64,000 nucleotides of DNA from Candidatus Poribacteria bacterium. Lineage in GTDB: Bacteria; Poribacteria; WGA-4E; PCPOR2b. Shown piece by piece: positions 32,009 through 40,934 of the stretch. The translations under genes and the position numbers were made by a program. Position 1 is the stretch's first letter. Each line of letters starts with the position of its first letter. The notes beneath the pieces were generated by a model. It did not search any database and was not told where the DNA came from. It saw only the letters and a program-made list of their open reading frames with translations. The stretch covers positions 1 through 64,000 of the forward strand of contig JAJEAL010000144.1 of NCBI GenBank assembly GCA_022822785.1, written 5' to 3'.

Positions 32009-32374
32009 CTATATTAACGGTTTTATGTGGCTAATTACTGATTTTAGATCTATCTCAAGTAACCTTTTGACTTCATTGGGCCTATTCTTGTAAGTTTTCG
32101 GATCATATCGAGCTGACCGACTTGCATCGTAGAGTCTCTTATAATTTTTCTTTATTACCTTGAGATCTGCATCGTTCCTGACTTCCCAATTGCGGTTCCC
32201 ATGGTTGGAGGGATGGCGTTGCGTTTTAGCAAGAAAGGCGTCAACCCAATGCAATGCCTGATAGAATGCGGTAATAACTATCCAATCTGGATGATCGTTT
32301 GGGGCATTTTTTAACGCAAGTTGGGCGTCTTCAGCAATGCTGCGTTTAGAGCGGTGTACTTGGTCATTTGGCAT
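32009..32374 (-). CDS. HEPN-like small protein, last gene of a three-gene cassette
   Basis: A 121-residue, mainly helical protein. The segment WIVITAFYQALHWVDAFLAK, then RHPSNH, resembles HEPN-fold proteins and includes an Rx4H pattern (R53, H58) of the kind that forms the RNase centre in HEPN toxins. The C-terminal half is basic (KKNYKRLYDASRSARYD). Its ATG lies 2 bp after the stop of the 172-residue gene, so translation is tightly linked. A toxin or RNA-cleaving effector is inferred, not shown. Location inside a restriction locus supports a defence role. Confidence 0.6.
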   Translation of the reverse strand: MPNDQVHRSKRSIAEDAQLALKNAPNDHPDWIVITAFYQALHWVDAFLAKTQRHPSNHGNRNWEVRNDADLKVIKKNYKRLYDASRSARYDPKTYKNRPNEVKRLLEIDLKSVISHIKPLI

Positions 32375-32376
32375 TG

Positions 32377-32895
32377 TTAGTCGCGAGCGAAAAGTTCAAT
32401 GTATGTCTGCTGGAATTGTTGAGAAGAGATATGATGCCCTACATATTCAAAATCAAATATCCAATTGGGGTAATCATCTTCCAACTGATCTTCTATTTCA
32501 CCTAACTTATCGGAGAGATCTCGACTCATATCATCAAGGGCGAGAATGAATTGTATTTCTCTTTGATTTTGTTTGCACAGAACTTGCTGAACTTCTGGTA
32601 TTTTGGTAATTTTTTCTTTATACTGACTCTTAACCTGTTCGAGTTCGCTGCTCAACTGCTGGCTCGTATCTTCTGACTTAGATAGTTTGTCAGATAACAC
32701 CTTTATTTCTGAGTCCCTGGCAGCCAATTGTTCTGTATAGTATTCTACCATTATGCGAAAGATCGTATCCGGTATGTGATAGGATGGGGTAATAGGTCCC
32801 GCAGTATCTCCAAAATGGTTAGGAAAATTCGTTGGCTCATTCGGTTGAGGATTTGACAGTTCATTTAAGTTTAAAGGTGTCGATTGTTGTCGCAT
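32377..32895 (-). CDS. Hypothetical coiled-coil protein, middle gene of the cassette
   Basis: A 172-residue protein I do not recognise. Residues 1-40 are Pro/Asn-rich and probably unfolded. Residues 50-140 form a charged coiled coil (EQLAARDSEIKVLSDKLSKS onward), and the C-terminus is aromatic (DDYPNWIFDFEYVGHH). The gene starts 1 bp after the stop of the 200-residue gene and ends 2 bp before the HEPN-like gene. It could bridge the two other products. Confidence 0.7.
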   Translation of the reverse strand: MRQQSTPLNLNELSNPQPNEPTNFPNHFGDTAGPITPSYHIPDTIFRIMVEYYTEQLAARDSEIKVLSDKLSKSEDTSQQLSSELEQVKSQYKEKITKIPEVQQVLCKQNQREIQFILALDDMSRDLSDKLGEIEDQLEDDYPNWIFDFEYVGHHISSQQFQQTYIELFARD

Positions 32896-32896
32896 T

Positions 32897-33499
32897 TTAA
32901 CCTCCTAACAAATTCCTTGCAGTATTACGGGCATGTCCTATCGTTTGAACAAAAGAGGAGATTATTTCACTTAGTTGATCAAAATTGCTAATGTTAAGGT
33001 GATAATTAAAATTTGCGTGGATTTGCTCGTTTTGCGGAGTTATTGTTAGTTGAACCCGAAAGCCATTGTATTTGTAATATACGATTCCGCCAATATTGTA
33101 GTTTGCTTCACCACGGAAGTTTTCGTCGAATCGTGCTTTATCCACCACAAACTTATTCTTTAAGAAATTAGGATCTGTCTGTGGAATATACCACGTGGAA
33201 TTAAGACCTATTGCGTTGTATGATACATTTGGAAGTGCTTTAACATATCGCCTAGTTATACCTTGCAAACGTTTTAGCATTTCTCCATCCAAATTTCGCG
33301 CAGCAATTGTTACCTGTTGTTGCACTACATTTATTGAGAAGTTTGTGGTATCAACTAGCGAGAAGTTTTGATGGTGAACAAAGTTAATAGCAGCTTCATT
33401 AAGAATGCCTTTCTGGTTAAGCCATTCTTTAGAAACAACTTCAGGTCTATGATCCGGCGCAACTAAGACGATGTTGCCTTGGATAAGTTCTGGTTCCAT
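32897..33499 (-). CDS. Hypothetical protein, first gene of the cassette
   Basis: A 200-residue protein I do not recognise. It is mixed alpha/beta with alternating beta-type segments (FSINVVQQQVTIAARNL; YNIGGIVYYKYNGFRVQLTI; NFNYHLNISNF) and a C-terminal helix. No signal peptide or membrane helix. AAGGAG lies before the ATG. An imperfect 22-bp palindrome 70-90 bp upstream (33568-33589) may be an operator. It leads a three-gene unit with 1-2 bp gaps placed between hsdM and hsdS. Confidence 0.7.
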   Translation of the reverse strand: MEPELIQGNIVLVAPDHRPEVVSKEWLNQKGILNEAAINFVHHQNFSLVDTTNFSINVVQQQVTIAARNLDGEMLKRLQGITRRYVKALPNVSYNAIGLNSTWYIPQTDPNFLKNKFVVDKARFDENFRGEANYNIGGIVYYKYNGFRVQLTITPQNEQIHANFNYHLNISNFDQLSEIISSFVQTIGHARNTARNLLGG

Positions 33500-33722: not shown

Positions 33723-35366
33723 TTACAGTCTTTCCCCGTTCAATCCAAGCCGTGTCAACACATCTTCCAACGCCTTATCCGCCCTTTCACGGGTGATACG
33801 TGCTTCGGTCAGGTCCGCCAGAATCTCAGAGACGGGCCGGTGCTCAACCTTATCTCCAACGTCCACGAATTGGGAAGGGCTCAGGTTATAATCGGTTTTT
33901 TGGGTATCTTCGAGTGTGATAACTGCGCTCAGCTGCTCGCGGGATTCCCACGCCTGATATACCTCCGCTGCGACATCAATCCCCTCATCAGTCAGGACAT
34001 TTTTCGGTTTCTGGTTGATGAAATATTTGGAGAGGTTGATGAGCAGGATTTGTCCTTCGCGCTCCGCTGGTTTGCTGCAGTTTAGCAGCAGAATGATTCC
34101 CGGTGCGCTTGTGTTATAGAATAGGTTTTCGGGCAGAAGGATCACGGCTTCAACCAGGTCATTCTCCACAAACCCTCTGCGGATATCGCGCTCCCGATTG
34201 CTCTGCTTGCTGCCGGAGCCACGAGAGACCGCACCGGTGTCGAGAACGATTGCAGCGCGTCCATTCTCTTTCAGGGAGGCGCATATATGCTGGGTCCATG
34301 CCCAATCTGCGGAGGAGTTTGGCGGGACGCCGTAGGTGAAGCGTCCATAGCTATCGTTGGCGTAGAAGGTCTCGTTATACTCCTTCTGATTCCACATCGG
34401 ATTGGCGAGTACGTAATCGAAGCGTTGTAGACTCGAATCGTCCGTAACAAAGCCCGGATTGCGGAAGGTGTCGCCGATACGCAGATCGGCACGGATGAAA
34501 TCGTGGAGAAAGGCGTTCATCTTCGCCATGGCGAAGGTGGTCGCGGTCCACTCCTGTCCATAGATTCTTGGCACTGCACCCTGTTGGTCCGGGTGCGTTT
34601 TCTTAAATAGGAGGCGGGGTTTGATAAGTAGACCGCCTGAACCGCAGGCGGGGTCGTAGATGGTGGTGTGTGGTTCGGGATCGATGAGGCGTGCCATTAA
34701 CCAACCCACCTCTTTCGGCGTGTAGAATTCGCCCGCGCTCTGTCCCTGTCCTTCGGCAAATTTCCGCAGCAGGTATTCGTAGGCGCGCCCTAGGATGTCT
34801 GGCTCTGTGTCTTGCAGTCCAAGCCGATGTCCACTGATGACCTCAATCAGCCTCTCCAGTCTGCCGTCGTCGATGGTGCGCTGTCCGCTCTGGCGTTCGT
34901 TGAAGTCTTCGACATCCAGAACACCCTGCAACAGTGGGTTGAGACGAGCAACCTCGCGCATCGCTTCGGTGACAAACTCTCCTAAGTGACCATCTGCAGG
35001 ACGGTTGCGAAGTGCTTCCCAACGATACTTTTGAGGGATGTAGAAACGGACAATCAGCGCGGAGCGTCCGCTTTTGAGGGCGTCCTGATGGTCCTCATCT
35101 ACTATTTCCCGTGTCCCTTCCTCGTCACCGCCGTATTTCTCGACCAGATTTGCAACTTCATCGTCGAATACATCGGATAGCCGTTTGTAGAAAATTAGGG
35201 GTAGGATGAAATCTTTGAATTTCGGGGCATCGGTCGCGCCACGGATGACACAGGCGGCGTCCCATAGCCATGTTTCCAGGGTGGAGATGTCTAATTGTGC
35301 CTCGTCTGGGGAGGAGAAGGGGATTGAGGTTTGTGGGGTGTCGGTTGCGGCGTTATTTTTTGGCAA
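33723..35366 (-). CDS. hsdM: Type I restriction-modification methyltransferase subunit
   Basis: A 547-residue N6-adenine methylase. The N-terminal helical HsdM_N domain (LDISTLETWLWDAACVIRGA, about 26-45) leads to the SAM motif TIYDPACGSGGLLIK and the catalytic motif IV YVLANPMWNQKEYNE. NPMW replaces the more common NPPF, a variant I recall from one HsdM branch. It methylates the site chosen by HsdS and protects self DNA. A 78-bp near-copy of its 5' coding region occurs at 40314-40391. Confidence 0.95.
   Translation of the reverse strand: MPKNNAATDTPQTSIPFSSPDEAQLDISTLETWLWDAACVIRGATDAPKFKDFILPLIFYKRLSDVFDDEVANLVEKYGGDEEGTREIVDEDHQDALKSGRSALIVRFYIPQKYRWEALRNRPADGHLGEFVTEAMREVARLNPLLQGVLDVEDFNERQSGQRTIDDGRLERLIEVISGHRLGLQDTEPDILGRAYEYLLRKFAEGQGQSAGEFYTPKEVGWLMARLIDPEPHTTIYDPACGSGGLLIKPRLLFKKTHPDQQGAVPRIYGQEWTATTFAMAKMNAFLHDFIRADLRIGDTFRNPGFVTDDSSLQRFDYVLANPMWNQKEYNETFYANDSYGRFTYGVPPNSSADWAWTQHICASLKENGRAAIVLDTGAVSRGSGSKQSNRERDIRRGFVENDLVEAVILLPENLFYNTSAPGIILLLNCSKPAEREGQILLINLSKYFINQKPKNVLTDEGIDVAAEVYQAWESREQLSAVITLEDTQKTDYNLSPSQFVDVGDKVEHRPVSEILADLTEARITRERADKALEDVLTRLGLNGERL
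35256..35333. repeat. hsdM 5' segment repeated at 40314-40391
   Basis: These 78 bp of the hsdM N-terminal coding region match 40314-40391 in the same orientation at about 90% identity without gaps. The differences fall mostly at third codon positions, so the second copy comes from a related hsdM gene rather than a fresh duplication. Confidence 0.75.
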
Positions 35367-35393: not shown

Positions 35394-35666
35394 CTAGTTT
35401 GCAAAAGCAATCAATTTCTTTTTAGGCCACCAGATAGGCGAACTATCGTGTTCAGGATATTTGGTGAATTGACGAAGTTGTTTCCGATTAAGGGTCATCC
35501 GGTAAATTTGACCATTTCCACCGCGGTTGGACATAAACACAACCTTTGTTTCAGCGGGTGGTGTTAGAGTGCTTGATGTTAGGAATAGATTTACAACTAT
35601 AGACAATAGACCTCCGTAAAGATAGCCTGTTTGTGTTCTACGTCCCCAAGACATCTTTTTCATCAT
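35394..35666 (-). pseudogene. Truncated TolB/PD40-like beta-propeller protein
   Basis: Start chosen at 35666 (AGGAGAG two bases before a double ATG). About 90 residues: a signal-like hydrophobic stretch (YLYGGLLSIVVNLFLTSSTL) and a single PD40 blade (VVFMSNRGGNGQIYRMTL, then SSPIWWPKKKLIAFAN). TolB-like proteins have several such blades; here the gene stops after one. It is probably a truncation left beside the inserted defence genes, though a tiny exported protein cannot be excluded. Confidence 0.55.
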
Positions 35667-35981
35667 AGCTCTCCTTTCTTTATTAGATTTGCCCAAACCG
35701 GAACAACATTCGTCGAACCCGCCACGCCTAAGTGGCGCTTGGGCTACTACCCCAGGGGTAGAGCTGTCCTAAAAGTCGTGTTGCCTTCAACAAGAAAAGT
35801 GCTCAGTCTTTAGGTGTAAAATAGTAGCACTTTTCGGGGTGGTTTGTTATAATTTCGGTATCGAAACACAAAGGGGTTAGAAGATGCGATAAGCAGGGGA
35901 ATATATCGTGGCTTGATCCTTATGTGACTTGCTATCCTCTTATCCTCCGATATTCGCTTGATTAGTTTATGGAGGTAAAAA

Positions 35982-37103
35982 TTGGCGCGTAGACCGCGAA
36001 GACTAAAGAACAAACATCCGCAGCTACAAGAACGGATGGAAAAACTGCTCAATTCGCCGCTCCATGAATTAGCCTCGGAATTAAAGCAGCTCACTAAGTT
36101 TAAACATGAGCAGATTATTGAGTATGTTTCTAAATTGTTGGAACGTCTGCCCGAAGAATTCGATCGTCGTTTCTACTTTGATGCTTGGATGATACAGTCG
36201 ATCGTGCAAAGTTGGAGCAACGATTTAACTCCGAACTCTCGTATGATTATCCCCACCCACTATAATGAATGGGGATATGAACCGCCTTCTATTCTCACCA
36301 ACCCTACAGTGAACACAAGTTTTGCAGTGAGTTTCATCCACATTCCATCTGAAGTGACTGAAATTCCATCACTTCTAGATTATCCTTGGCTATGTCATGA
36401 GTTAGGACATCATTTGTTTTCGATGCCCAAGCATAAACAGATGCTGTTTGATAAATTTCATTCGCATGTTGAAGAGTTGATTTCAAAACTGAAAATAATG
36501 TCAATTTCAGATCACGGACTTGCCAAAATCAGATCTCAAGCCACGATAGACGAAATTAATACAAAATGGAGAGATTCAAAATGGGTTGAGGAACTGGCAA
36601 TTGACGTCATCGCCCTCTGGACATGTGGTCCTGCATATCTGGCAGCTTTTCAAGACGAACATGAGCAAGTTGAAGACCCCTTTATAATCGAACTAACTCA
36701 TCCACCTGTTGAACTCAGAACCTATGCACTATTACATGCTGCCCGAAAATTAGGTTGGCACAAGTATCTTAAAGAGTTAGAGCAGATACAAAAGGACTGG
36801 TATAGGAGAGTACCATCATCAATTGGAAACCAATATCGGTTATTGCATAATCATGAACTTGTAACTCAATGCGTTGATGCAGCACTAGCTTACTGTAAAA
36901 GTTCAAGAATACCTCGTCTTAAACTTGAAGATCTCAATAAAATGCGTCTGAATTTGCAGCGAGAAAATGATTTCTCGGAGGGCATCGAACTTATCGTCGC
37001 TGCATGGTTAGTCTATCATGAAAACGAAGAATGTTACGATGATTGGGAAGAACAAACTTTTAACAAACTAGCTGATGAGATCATGAGGAACTCCGTTAAA
37101 TAG
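35982..37103 (+). CDS. HELGHH zinc-metallopeptidase-like protein convergent with Argonaute
   Basis: A 373-residue protein I cannot name. It starts at TTG 35982 with a strong GGAGG six bases before it. A zinc-peptidase motif CHELGHHLFS has H139, E140 and H143; a downstream acidic run (WVEELAIDVIALWTCGPAYL, with E203, E204 and D208) could give the third ligand. The N-terminus is basic. No signal peptide or membrane helix. Its last 8 bp overlap the 3' end of the Argonaute gene on the other strand. This pairing and the restriction locus nearby suggest a defence or stress protease, which is an inference. Confidence 0.7.
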   Translation: MARRPRRLKNKHPQLQERMEKLLNSPLHELASELKQLTKFKHEQIIEYVSKLLERLPEEFDRRFYFDAWMIQSIVQSWSNDLTPNSRMIIPTHYNEWGYEPPSILTNPTVNTSFAVSFIHIPSEVTEIPSLLDYPWLCHELGHHLFSMPKHKQMLFDKFHSHVEELISKLKIMSISDHGLAKIRSQATIDEINTKWRDSKWVEELAIDVIALWTCGPAYLAAFQDEHEQVEDPFIIELTHPPVELRTYALLHAARKLGWHKYLKELEQIQKDWYRRVPSSIGNQYRLLHNHELVTQCVDAALAYCKSSRIPRLKLEDLNKMRLNLQRENDFSEGIELIVAAWLVYHENEECYDDWEEQTFNKLADEIMRNSVK

Positions 37104-39468
37104 TGATGCCCGTGATTTTATAGGCTTTCGACAATTGTAAAGCTCCTCCATTAGCAACATGCAGAACCCACGGAAGTTTCGTTCCCGTGTCAATTTTGGA
37201 AAAGCACATATCGGTTTCCCAGAACAGGTCGCGTAAGGCATCTTCGGGATTAGCTGTGCCGTAAATATTGTGAACGTGGATGAGCAGCGGTGAGGCAGTG
37301 CCTTGACGAGGGAGATATGGCTCGCCTGTCGTACATATAATCGCTGTATTTTTATCAAGAAATGGGAAGGTACATCTTCCAACGGTGGGATTCTCAACGG
37401 TGTTATTGTGACTTCTACGGAGGACCCTCCAAAAAGCAGCTCTTTTAGAAATTTCTAATGCTGTCCAAAGGGCATTATCATCAATCCACCCCCATCGATG
37501 TAGTTCTTTATGTAATCTATCAAGTGTTTCCTTCTCATTCCAATGGTCACCTTGTCCACCTAACTTGCCATCACGGAAAAACAGGAGACTATTAAAATTC
37601 GGTTTCTCAATACCGGCGTCAACCAGATTGTGGTATAGCTCCTCAAGCAAGGAGAGAAGACCGCTGTAAAAGTCACGGTCAGGAATTGGCTCGGCTTTCT
37701 GCGTTTGGATATTCACCTCTTTAGGCAGAAATGTAAGCCCATCAGCAGGTTGTGCGAAACCATATCCAGCGCATACCATGACGCGATTGTTATGTACACC
37801 ACCAACATCAATCCCCAAGTGAACGTTGTAATGAAAAGGTTCGGCCGGTGCAAACGGAACCCAGTGATGTTTAACCAGTAGGTTTAAGAGACACTGTTGG
37901 TAGTGATCTCGAATCTCGCGGGCTTTATGTGGCTGCGCTGCCTTGAATTCTCTCGGACGTCGATCTACCCACTCTTGAGGCAGGGTATTATCGTGGTGAA
38001 TACACTGTGAGGGAATTGAGATTTCCTGTTTAATTTTCTCATGCATGTCTGTATCAAAGTATTTTTTATGGCGTCCTTCGGGAAGCACAGCAAATAAGGT
38101 ATCGTATTTTCCTTTTTCAACTTCACGCTTTATATCATAGACTGTCTGGTAACCGCATTGCCTCTCAAACTGGAAATTTAACCCATTCTGAGTCACCAAC
38201 CAATTAAGGTCACTTTTCAGGCGTCTTGCACATTCTTCTCCAAAATTTTGAGGATATACCAAGAGCGGATTTATGGGTCTTTGTTGCAAGTATCCGTTGT
38301 TACGGATATGATTGGCCAGCCTCTTTCGTCGGAGATTCAACTCCCGAGGTGAGCCATTCTTTGGTCCGGAAATACGATTAATACCGTTTGGAGAAGGATA
38401 AACACAAAGTGCTGGAGGTTTGAATTGGAGGCAGTCAAAATTCCGGATAGCAAAGGGGCGTTCAGCCAAATTGATTGTTTTTTTATAAGCGTCTAATCCA
38501 TTGAGGAAATCGCGCAGTATATCATACCAATTGGTTCTTTCATCTGGGGGAATAATTGTTTCTTGATGGCGTTCCTGGGCAATGCCGGTCTCAGGTATAA
38601 GTCGAATCTCATTTAAAGGAACAGAGATGGGCGGTTTCTTGTATTGTTTGCAGAGAAGTGTTTGATCAGCCAAGTCAATTTGGTCAATTTTATCAAGCAT
38701 TGCATGGGTAATAATTTCGTCGGGATTGTCTAATTCGAGTACGGTAGCTGCGACATCCCCTAGAGAACGCCAAATTCGAATTTCTGGGTGCTTGTTTTGC
38801 CGCGTTAAGCGGTTTTCTCGTTTGAGTCGAATCAACTCCGCCAACTGTTTAACCTCGCCGCTACGATAATAGTCTGCAAAGGTCCGCCCATCAATGCTTG
38901 GAGTGGTGACTGCAATTTGTAGTACCCAACAATTATCTTCAAGAAGCTCGGGAGAAACATGAAACTTACGATAGTAAATGATATCTTGGTCTGACTGCGT
39001 TAAGTCAGGCATTTGGCAAAAGTCATTGTAGTCTTGCCAGAACGGTCCAATTTTACTGAAAGAGCCATTATCCTTAAAATGTCGCTTAATGCTTTCTCGC
39101 AAAATTCCTGTGACAATTACCCTATGGTTCGGATTGCTCATTTGGGCTTTGAGCTCGTGGTCACGTGTAACTCGGTATCCCTTGAAGTCGTCCTCCTGAG
39201 GAATATTCCAATTTTTGGGTATAGCCACCGTTGTTTTATCTACATCAAGAATAAAGCCGTAGCTGGGACACTGCCCCGCGTACTGCCGACGCAAGTCCCA
39301 CATAATGTCTTTTATTTTTCCTCGATCCTCGTTTTTTGATTGATTACCGTTCAGTTGAACGATTTTGTAGATTGCAACCTCCCAACTTAGATCTTCTAGG
39401 TCAAGGATACTATAAGCATTAAGAAACTCCGTGTTCTTGGAATCGGTAATTTTTTTATTTTCTCCCAT
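37096..39468 (-). CDS. Long prokaryotic Argonaute with predicted DEDN catalytic tetrad
   Basis: A 790-residue prokaryotic Argonaute. Residues 1 to about 430 would hold the N, linker and PAZ-type regions, too divergent to split by eye. The MID domain (about 440-545) has YDTLFAVLPEG, IPSQCIHHDNTLP and LLNLLVKHHWVPF, the usual IPSQ and K-GG-PW region. The PIWI domain follows: VHLGIDVGGVHNNR (D554), KAEPIPDRDF (E593), LLFFRDGKLG (D633) and LPWVLHVANGGA (N773). Aligned by eye with Thermus Argonaute this gives D-E-D-N, an allowed form of DEDX, so nuclease activity is plausible. Its start overlaps the upstream membrane-protein gene by 14 bp, so translation is coupled. It would use short guides to target invading DNA or RNA. 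Confidence 0.85.
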   Translation of the reverse strand: MGENKKITDSKNTEFLNAYSILDLEDLSWEVAIYKIVQLNGNQSKNEDRGKIKDIMWDLRRQYAGQCPSYGFILDVDKTTVAIPKNWNIPQEDDFKGYRVTRDHELKAQMSNPNHRVIVTGILRESIKRHFKDNGSFSKIGPFWQDYNDFCQMPDLTQSDQDIIYYRKFHVSPELLEDNCWVLQIAVTTPSIDGRTFADYYRSGEVKQLAELIRLKRENRLTRQNKHPEIRIWRSLGDVAATVLELDNPDEIITHAMLDKIDQIDLADQTLLCKQYKKPPISVPLNEIRLIPETGIAQERHQETIIPPDERTNWYDILRDFLNGLDAYKKTINLAERPFAIRNFDCLQFKPPALCVYPSPNGINRISGPKNGSPRELNLRRKRLANHIRNNGYLQQRPINPLLVYPQNFGEECARRLKSDLNWLVTQNGLNFQFERQCGYQTVYDIKREVEKGKYDTLFAVLPEGRHKKYFDTDMHEKIKQEISIPSQCIHHDNTLPQEWVDRRPREFKAAQPHKAREIRDHYQQCLLNLLVKHHWVPFAPAEPFHYNVHLGIDVGGVHNNRVMVCAGYGFAQPADGLTFLPKEVNIQTQKAEPIPDRDFYSGLLSLLEELYHNLVDAGIEKPNFNSLLFFRDGKLGGQGDHWNEKETLDRLHKELHRWGWIDDNALWTALEISKRAAFWRVLRRSHNNTVENPTVGRCTFPFLDKNTAIICTTGEPYLPRQGTASPLLIHVHNIYGTANPEDALRDLFWETDMCFSKIDTGTKLPWVLHVANGGALQLSKAYKITGITI

Positions 39469-39832
39469 TGCGTTCCCTCGTAAAAAAATATGTTACGGCG
39501 GCCGCTGCGAGTCCAGAGATGACGGGCAGCCATGCACTGAAAGTCTGTTCGACGATCTTCAGCGCATCGGTTTTATCCTGGGCAGCTAACCAAGCCATAA
39601 CTCCATAGTGGATTACAAAAGATCCGCCAAGTATACTGATTAGCAGATATGCGAGCCACCTTGTGGTAGTCGCTTTATGTTTTTCAATTAGATTGTAGGA
39701 CGGGTCAGGTTCAAGGGAAATGGTGCCGCCATCTATGTCAACTCCAGTGGTTTCGCTATCTTCGGAACTTGGCTCATCATTAAGTTCCAAAGTTGTTTCT
39801 TCAGCATTATCACTGTTTTTTTCTCTTTCCAC
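39455..39832 (-). CDS. Two-helix membrane protein in the Argonaute operon
   Basis: A 125-residue protein. Residues 1-50 are acidic and probably unstructured; two hydrophobic helices follow (WLAYLLISILGGSFVIHYGV and WLPVISGLAAAAVTYFF), and the end is basic (RERNGRK). No signal peptide cleavage site. The gene starts 2 bp after the ribbon-helix-helix gene and overlaps the Argonaute gene by 14 bp. Membrane proteins act as effectors in some known Argonaute systems, so a membrane-disrupting or anchoring role is possible. I do not recognise the family. Confidence 0.75.
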   Translation of the reverse strand: MEREKNSDNAEETTLELNDEPSSEDSETTGVDIDGGTISLEPDPSYNLIEKHKATTTRWLAYLLISILGGSFVIHYGVMAWLAAQDKTDALKIVEQTFSAWLPVISGLAAAAVTYFFTRERNGRK

Positions 39833-39834
39833 AA

Positions 39835-40089
39835 TTACTTACCTTTTCGAGAAAGTGACTGTAATGAAGGAATAACAAGGACCCGTTCATTTCCAGTCTC
39901 AGGGTCTCGCACAATAATTTCGTTGTATCCTTTTTTGGCTTGTGTTTGTAGTGCCCGGTTGATTTGCAGGGAATCACGCACAGTTTCAGCCAGAGAGGAG
40001 TAATGTCCTTCTTCTTTCATCTCTTCTAAAGCTTCTAGACTATTCACATCAAATGTGAATGCTACCCGCTTACTATCCTTTCTTGCCAT
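39835..40089 (-). CDS. Ribbon-helix-helix protein, likely autorepressor of the Argonaute operon
   Basis: An 84-residue protein. The N-terminal RHH fold reads KRVAFTFDVNSLEALEEM, a beta strand and helix, with SSLAETVRDSL as the second helix. The tail is NEIIVRDPETGNERVLVIPS. AGGAGG lies 8 bp before the ATG. It is the first gene of the operon, and two tandem 11-bp repeats overlap its promoter, which fits an RHH dimer binding there. It has no toxin partner in the usual sense; the downstream genes may be what it controls. Confidence 0.75.
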   Translation of the reverse strand: MARKDSKRVAFTFDVNSLEALEEMKEEGHYSSLAETVRDSLQINRALQTQAKKGYNEIIVRDPETGNERVLVIPSLQSLSRKGK

Positions 40090-40135
40090 TGTTTTTGCCT
40101 CCTGATTTTTATAATAGATCTAACAATGTGACAAA

Positions 40136-40157
40136 CATACCATAAGCATACCATAAA
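40136..40157. promoter_or_regulatory. Tandem 11-bp repeats, probable operator of the Argonaute operon
   Basis: CATACCATAAG (40136-40146) and CATACCATAAA (40147-40157) abut exactly, one helical turn apart. They cover the -10 hexamer and the region just downstream of it. This geometry suits repression by the RHH protein encoded first in the operon. Confidence 0.65.
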
Positions 40158-40174
40158 ATACATATTATTGTCAA
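40145..40174 (-). promoter_or_regulatory. Sigma-70 promoter of the Argonaute operon
   Basis: On the minus strand TTGACA (40174-40169), an 18-bp spacer, then TATGCT (40150-40145), followed by the RHH gene start at 40089 with AGGAGG. Confidence 0.7.
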
Positions 40175-40257: not shown

Positions 40258-40316
40258 AGACCCGTCCGGGAAATTCTTTTTCGCAGATACGCATGAAACG
40301 GAACTTCCCCGCTGGC
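40258..40316 (-). pseudogene. Remnant of a second PhyH dioxygenase C-terminus
   Basis: The minus strand reads PAGKFRFMRICEKEFPGRV and a stop, almost the same as the end of the intact PhyH protein (PRGKFRFMPIRGKEFPGRV). The DNA aligns ungapped with 40978-41036 at about 80% identity. Its 5' part is replaced by an hsdM fragment, out of frame by one base. Confidence 0.7.
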
Positions 40317-40405
40317 GTCCCATAGCCATGTTTCAAGGGTGGAGATGTCTAATTGTTCCTCGTCTGGGGAGGAAAATGGAATTGTGGTTTGGGTTGCATC
40401 TGCTG
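40314..40405 (-). pseudogene. Remnant of an hsdM N-terminus fused to the PhyH remnant
   Basis: The minus strand reads QTTIPFSSPDEEQLDIST, then LETWLWDA, matching hsdM residues about 11-36 (QTSIPFSSPDEAQLDIST). The homology may reach to 40405 (SADATQTT against AATDTPQT). It joins the PhyH C-terminal remnant at 40314-40316. Confidence 0.7.
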
Positions 40406-40667: not shown

Positions 40668-40934
40668 TCAGATAAACGCTTTTCTTGCATTCGCGAGCGA
40701 TTCTTCGAGTTCGTCAGGTGTTTCTCCAAAAGGTGAAAGACCGTGCTCACCGACAAGATATATAAATGTGGAGCGTGACACTCCCGCAAGTTGAGCGGCG
40801 AGTCCGGTACTGAGTTTGCCTGTTTCGTAATATTTCAACGCTAGTAGTAAACGAGCTTCCTCCTCAAATTCTTCCGGCTCTTTTCCGAGTGCCGATAGAA
40901 TTTCGGTTGGGTATTGAATAGCTTGCCTCGCCAT
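40668..40934 (-). CDS. UPF0175 family protein (small HTH, antitoxin-like)
   Basis: An 88-residue protein of the UPF0175 family. It has LLLALKYYETGKLSTGLAAQ, then LAGVSRSTFIYLVGEHGLSP, the helix-turn-helix core. Relatives are often partners of PIN or DUF3368 toxins, but no such gene lies downstream. It ends about 500 bp before the Argonaute operon, 43 bp from the PhyH gene, on the same strand. It may be a solitary regulator. Confidence 0.8.
   Translation of the reverse strand: MARQAIQYPTEILSALGKEPEEFEEEARLLLALKYYETGKLSTGLAAQLAGVSRSTFIYLVGEHGLSPFGETPDELEESLANARKAFI

Follow-up and report, generated by a model that had tools for sequence, protein, structure and literature searches.

The stretch of DNA analysed here, called the window throughout, covers 64,000 nucleotides (positions 1-64,000 of the forward strand of contig JAJEAL010000144.1, assembly GCA_022822785.1) from a Candidatus Poribacteria bacterium, and it carries a compact locus built around a long prokaryotic Argonaute. 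Three genes on the minus strand follow one another closely: a gene for a ribbon-helix-helix (RHH)-like DNA-binding protein of 84 amino acids (aa), likely the operon regulator, at 40089-39835 with a Shine-Dalgarno-like AGGAGG on its 5' side; a gene with a GTG start for a small membrane protein of 125 aa, referred to as TM (39832-39455); and ago, which encodes the 790-aa Argonaute, Ago (39468-37096). The first two are separated by 2 bp and the second and third overlap by 14 bp, and the places, sizes and spacing of these reading frames are exactly those given in an original prediction made from the letters of this DNA. The set of three that it described is indeed present, yet it is incomplete, as it overlooked a fourth gene on the plus strand (35982-37103) that is convergent with ago and encodes a zinc-metallopeptidase-like protein of 373 aa, M. 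The stop codons of M and ago overlap by 8 bp. RHH, TM, ago and M very probably form one functional unit.

The product of ago, 790 aa in length, is indeed a long prokaryotic Argonaute. The PIWI motif that had been read from its sequence is borne out by profile matches far above noise, with the PADLOC models pAgo (E=3.5e-25, residues 441-773), PprPIWI (2.6e-24) and pAgo_II (9e-22) all detecting it. Among solved structures, a two-sequence profile matched the Piwi-domain proteins 8xih and 9wmd (E about 2.6e-18) and a single-sequence query matched PliAgo (7r8f, E=9.6e-6); no match was obtained among Pfam or NCBIfam models. Alignment with TtAgo and other Argonautes reveals an intact DEDX catalytic tetrad in the form DEDN, made up of D554 (37809-37807), E593 (37692-37690), D633 (37572-37570) and N773 (37152-37150), all encoded on the minus strand. 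The fourth residue is Asp in the homologue from Deinococcus described below, Asn being permitted at this position of DEDX, and the residues D, E, D and N or D are present in all Argonautes compared. The predicted MID motif is found as well, as a pocket of H476, K480, Q488 and K533 that aligns with R418, K422, Q433 and K457 of TtAgo. The resulting HKQK is of the canonical type for a MID 5'-end pocket, (Y/H/R)KQK (PMC9360449). As both the tetrad and the canonical pocket are intact, the prediction is that Ago can act as a nuclease and binds 5' ends in the canonical manner.

The motif layout of M resembles that of a gluzincin-type zinc peptidase. It comprises, on the plus strand, H139-E140-x-x-H143 (HELGH, 36396-36410), E204-x3-D208 (36591-36605) and H240-P-x4-R246 (36699-36719), and the residues H139, E140, H143, E204, D208, H240 and R246 are invariant in 15 sequences. 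The order HExxH, ExxxD and H(P)xxxxR is shared with M48 and other gluzincins; unlike M48, most M members are without membrane helices. A profile comparison of M with M48 scored 29.5, and none of 60 column shuffles exceeded 20.3. Membership of M48 was nevertheless not accepted, because the hhalign probability is just 9-12% although above shuffled controls. Judged by its motifs, M is somewhat more likely than not a working metallopeptidase.

A tblastn search of the PLSDB plasmids with Ago found one full-length homologue, on a Deinococcus plasmid (35.6% identity over 98%, E 2e-149). The genes there are, in order, an RHH-like gene (79 aa), a gene for a membrane protein (149 aa), the Argonaute gene and a convergent gene of 369 aa, and the identities to the products of the window are 64% for RHH, 35% for TM (E 8e-17), 36% for Ago and 29% for M. 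Since order and orientation are the same on the Deinococcus plasmid, the four-gene unit is conserved between two phyla, and with it the three-gene order of the original prediction recurs in another phylum. The unit is real and not a product of chance, and it crosses phyla. A tblastn search in phages found no relatives, nor did scans of genome and viral contig collections with Ago or M peptides, which used few short peptides and form a weak negative.

M is also kept beside other Argonautes. Plasmid operons in Rhizobium, Spirosoma, Emticicia and a cyanobacterium contain a regulator, a PD-(D/E)XK nuclease, a more distant Argonaute, a small protein S and an M homologue, and RslAgo from Runella, a biochemically characterised member of the DNA-guided, RNA-cleaving (D-R) Argonautes, has the same neighbours including the M homologue; the plasmid operons are likewise counted as D-R. 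The upstream regulator is a helix-turn-helix (HTH) protein in Rhizobium, in Runella and in loci from the window's own phylum; Spirosoma and Emticicia have a sigma factor there, accompanied by an upstream protein that is conserved. A profile search of the window's own phylum detected M in 9 of 85 genomes. Besides the window, five of these have an Argonaute and a nuclease adjoining M, one has M at the start of a contig, and two carry S and M without an Argonaute.

Profile comparisons establish homology between the window type and the D-R type for both Argonaute and M. In the Argonaute tree the three M-linked lineages (the window type, D-R and the type of the window's own phylum) are separated from the sampled long-A Argonautes with support of 100/99, with no clear branching order among the three. 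The M tree yields these three groups as well. Both trees are limited by the length of their branches and the small number of sequences. M is the only partner common to the window type and the related Argonaute operons. M and Argonaute are co-inherited, and the window Ago represents a third lineage within a broader M-linked Argonaute group to which D-R also belongs.

The published D-R Argonautes fall into a PliAgo group (PliAgo, RslAgo) and a PnyAgo group (PnyAgo, HpeAgo, MpaAgo) (PMC9360449). The window Ago is like them in its intact tetrad, in its grouping with them in the tree, in having an M homologue in the operon, as RslAgo itself has, and in full-length homology, residues 13-775 being aligned by hhalign with a probability of 99.9 and an E of 2.2e-33. 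Its HKQK pocket is the one reported from the PnyAgo group, that of the PliAgo group being RHSY (PMC9360449), and as HKQK is also of the canonical type it is not diagnostic. It also differs from them. The Cas4-like PD-(D/E)XK nuclease found directly upstream in D-R operons is absent from the window locus and has no match in the whole draft assembly, the S gene is also absent from the locus, RHH and TM stand in place of nuclease and S, and M is convergent in the window but co-directional in D-R operons. D-R Argonautes further possess a conserved Lys, K759 in PliAgo, three residues before the fourth catalytic residue (PMC9360449); this position is H770 in the window and His in Deinococcus, whereas RslAgo and all other M-linked Argonautes have Lys. 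Because nuclease and lysine are both missing, we did not accept the window Ago as a member of D-R.

Other systems resemble the locus in part. BPAM, the known kind of membrane-effector system to which the original prediction appealed by analogy, combines like the window a long Argonaute with a membrane protein in a small operon, but its long-B Argonautes are catalytically inactive and its TM gene lies downstream of ago (PMC10620215), whereas the window tetrad is intact and the window TM gene lies upstream of ago and overlaps it. APAP pairs a haloarchaeal catalytic long-A Argonaute with a PLD protein (PMC11442185) and is thus similar in joining a catalytically competent long Argonaute to an accessory protein; in contrast to the window, that accessory is a PLD nuclease, and in the tree the Natrinema Argonaute is placed on the opposite side. 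The nuclease-protease antiviral pairs of PMC12799240, in which a protease activates its partner within a defence system, are a conceptual parallel only, as their protease is trypsin-like, unlike M, and no homology is claimed. The D-R operon description in PMC9360449 names the nuclease, an HTH protein or sigma factor and the Argonaute and contains no word beginning with 'metallo', and the main text of the survey PMC6299218 makes no mention of peptidases or proteases. Searches of the open-access literature for a link of Argonaute with metallopeptidase, metalloprotease or ribbon-helix-helix returned nothing relevant, and the association of Argonaute and M appears to be undescribed in open-access papers.

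TM has an acidic N-terminal tail of about 55 aa, two predicted helices where hydropathy is highest (residues 60-78 and 100-118), in agreement with the two-helix protein first proposed, and a basic C-terminus; in the Deinococcus homologue the second hydropathy peak is weaker. It is convincingly found in two loci only, those of the window and Deinococcus. Elsewhere in the PLSDB plasmids and the 85 genomes of the phylum no homologue was detected, save a pair of marginal hits (E about 0.003) that contain internal stops. TM also resembled Pfam DctQ below the cut-off (E 0.003), which was dismissed as generic hydrophobicity.

The RHH-like protein has the sequence pattern typical of RHH, but matches no family model above cut-off (Pfam RHH_1, 13.3 bits against a cut-off of 20.5, E=0.08; NikR N-terminal domain, E=0.13, sub-threshold). 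As had been proposed, an RHH-like protein and a small membrane protein accompany Ago in the operon, but the former is not specific to Argonaute. Apart from the Deinococcus protein, homologues with 65% and 61% identity occur in two relatives of the window's genome. In G006, a genome of the same family, the homologue (L074 9534-9788, minus strand) lies immediately upstream of hsdM, without TM, ago or M in the interval, and in another genome (L075 763-1110, plus strand) the homologue is followed by genes for an HTH protein and a DNA methylase, again with no TM, ago or M. A regulator dedicated to Argonaute was rejected on these grounds, and since relatives carry RHH beside hsdM and beside the methylase, it looks like a regulator common to exchangeable defence modules. 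A candidate promoter of RHH-TM-ago, TTGACA-18-TATGCT with an extended -10 element, lies at 40174-40145 on the minus strand, and its -35 region is conserved in G006. It is overlapped by two tandem 11-bp repeats, ATGGTATGYTT (40154-40133, minus strand), which are a plausible RHH operator; their score was reached by 7 of 2000 shuffles, in a test that was post hoc.

The Argonaute module sits in a type I restriction-modification (RM) island, an island with a GC content lower than that of its surroundings. The island genes hsdM (35366-33723), hsdS (31530-30283) and hsdR (29184-26317), all on the minus strand, are context and stand outside the Argonaute unit. An orphan copy of 78 bp from the 5' coding end of hsdM is found beyond the opposite end of the module (40314-40391, minus strand; 92% identical to 35256-35333), so that the block M-ago-TM-RHH is bracketed by hsdM sequence, and this direct repeat suggests how the module entered the island. 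In G006 the island is syntenic, with hsdR and hsdM aligning at 75-78% DNA identity; RHH and the promoter region lie 0.37 kb upstream of hsdM there, compared with 4.5 kb in the window, where TM, ago and M lie between.

Further genes on the minus strand were noted. Three small genes (200, 172 and 121 aa) between hsdM and hsdS, at 32009-33499, are possibly an inserted accessory module, and the 121-aa gene has a weak HEPN match (E 0.006). Between M and hsdM, at 35394-35696, an open reading frame of 100 aa with a marginal beta-propeller (PD40) repeat is probably a gene fragment. Just upstream of the module, at 40668-40934, lies a gene for a UPF0175-family protein (E 1.7e-20) with a weak PADLOC match to PDC-S70.

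We read the locus as a four-gene Argonaute system, in which an operon of RHH, TM and a competent long Ago is joined by a convergent peptidase-like partner, M, and we give this reading a probability of roughly 55%. What speaks for it is that the four genes stay together across two phyla, that the motifs of Ago and M are intact, that M is inherited along with Argonaute, and that the locus sits in a low-GC RM island. That the locus serves in defence against mobile elements is probable. In such a system Ago would use its canonical pocket to load short guides and would cut or bind complementary nucleic acid of the invader, either RNA or DNA. M, as the core partner, would turn recognition into a second response, or regulate that response, by cleaving a protein, and the membrane protein, as the partner that varies, would execute this response or localise it. 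RHH would repress the operon through the tandem repeats at the promoter. A specific order of action from Argonaute to M and then to the membrane protein is tentative and, as it stands, doubtful. More speculative still, and improbable, is the idea that target recognition by Argonaute activates M, which then removes the acidic tail of TM and so damages the membrane, and that in D-R operons M acts instead on S or on the Cas4-like nuclease.

Several observations weigh against the reading as a four-gene system. The window type has two known members only, and RHH occurs without TM, ago and M in relatives. M has no match to a Pfam, NCBIfam or PDB family, Pfam giving none in 15 members, so that proteolysis rests on motifs. 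Neither AlphaFold structure model is usable: both were built from shallow, distant alignments, with a mean pLDDT of 33 for Ago and 48 for M, and Foldseek with the model of M gave no match below E 1. Finally, M may have a role independent of Argonaute, given two loci of the phylum that have neither nuclease nor Argonaute. In L027 (1580-4005) an HTH gene is followed after 0.46 kb by S-M, and in L028 (6522-8270) S-M is preceded by repetitive open reading frames. These loci are either decay products or evidence of an independent function of S-M.

An HExxH peptidase and a repressor are an established regulatory pair, ImmA/IrrE-type peptidases acting on their own repressors, and M could similarly be a switch protease that cleaves the DNA-binding protein of the operon and releases expression on stress, leaving TM as the sole effector. 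Loci in which the upstream end is present do carry a DNA-binding regulator, be it an HTH protein, a sigma factor with the conserved protein, or RHH. These regulators come from unrelated families, however, while M and Argonaute are constant, which makes a conserved regulator substrate less likely, and in the window type M has a convergent transcription unit of its own. We therefore regard a regulatory role of this kind as rather unlikely.

It could also be that Ago alone, as a guided nuclease, acts on invader DNA or RNA, with TM as an anchor and M as a housekeeping or dispensable neighbour in the island. Its intact catalytic tetrad is consistent with this, and the introduction of PMC11442185 states that numerous long Argonautes with catalytic activity work with no effector. 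Yet M is kept beside three deeply diverged Argonaute lineages, with which it co-diverges, and its motif residues are invariant, and a neutral neighbour would not persist across phyla; action of Ago alone is thus improbable. An addiction-type, selfish unit within the RM island, in which a further component holds a TM toxin in check and the host dies when the unit is lost, would suit the plasmid-borne location in Deinococcus, the bracketing by the 78-bp hsdM repeat in the window and the fact that RHH proteins often head toxin-antitoxin operons, but it is very improbable, as a plain toxin-antitoxin pair leaves both M and a conserved 790-aa Ago with an intact site unexplained.

For the four-gene reading, the wider interest lies in what M may say about Argonautes as a group. 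D-R Argonautes have no known cellular role, and in the published analysis of their operons the only partners named are the nuclease and one transcription factor (PMC9360449). Across D-R, a second lineage and the TM-bearing lineage of the window, the sole partner retained is an HExxH protein, a pointer to where that missing role might be found, and the presence of this protein next to RNA-cutting Argonautes suggests that a connection between Argonautes and proteolysis has been overlooked. The combination of a catalytically competent Argonaute with a membrane protein is itself one that we did not find described. If Argonaute does act on M and M in turn cleaves a partner, the locus would represent a guide-controlled proteolytic immune pathway.

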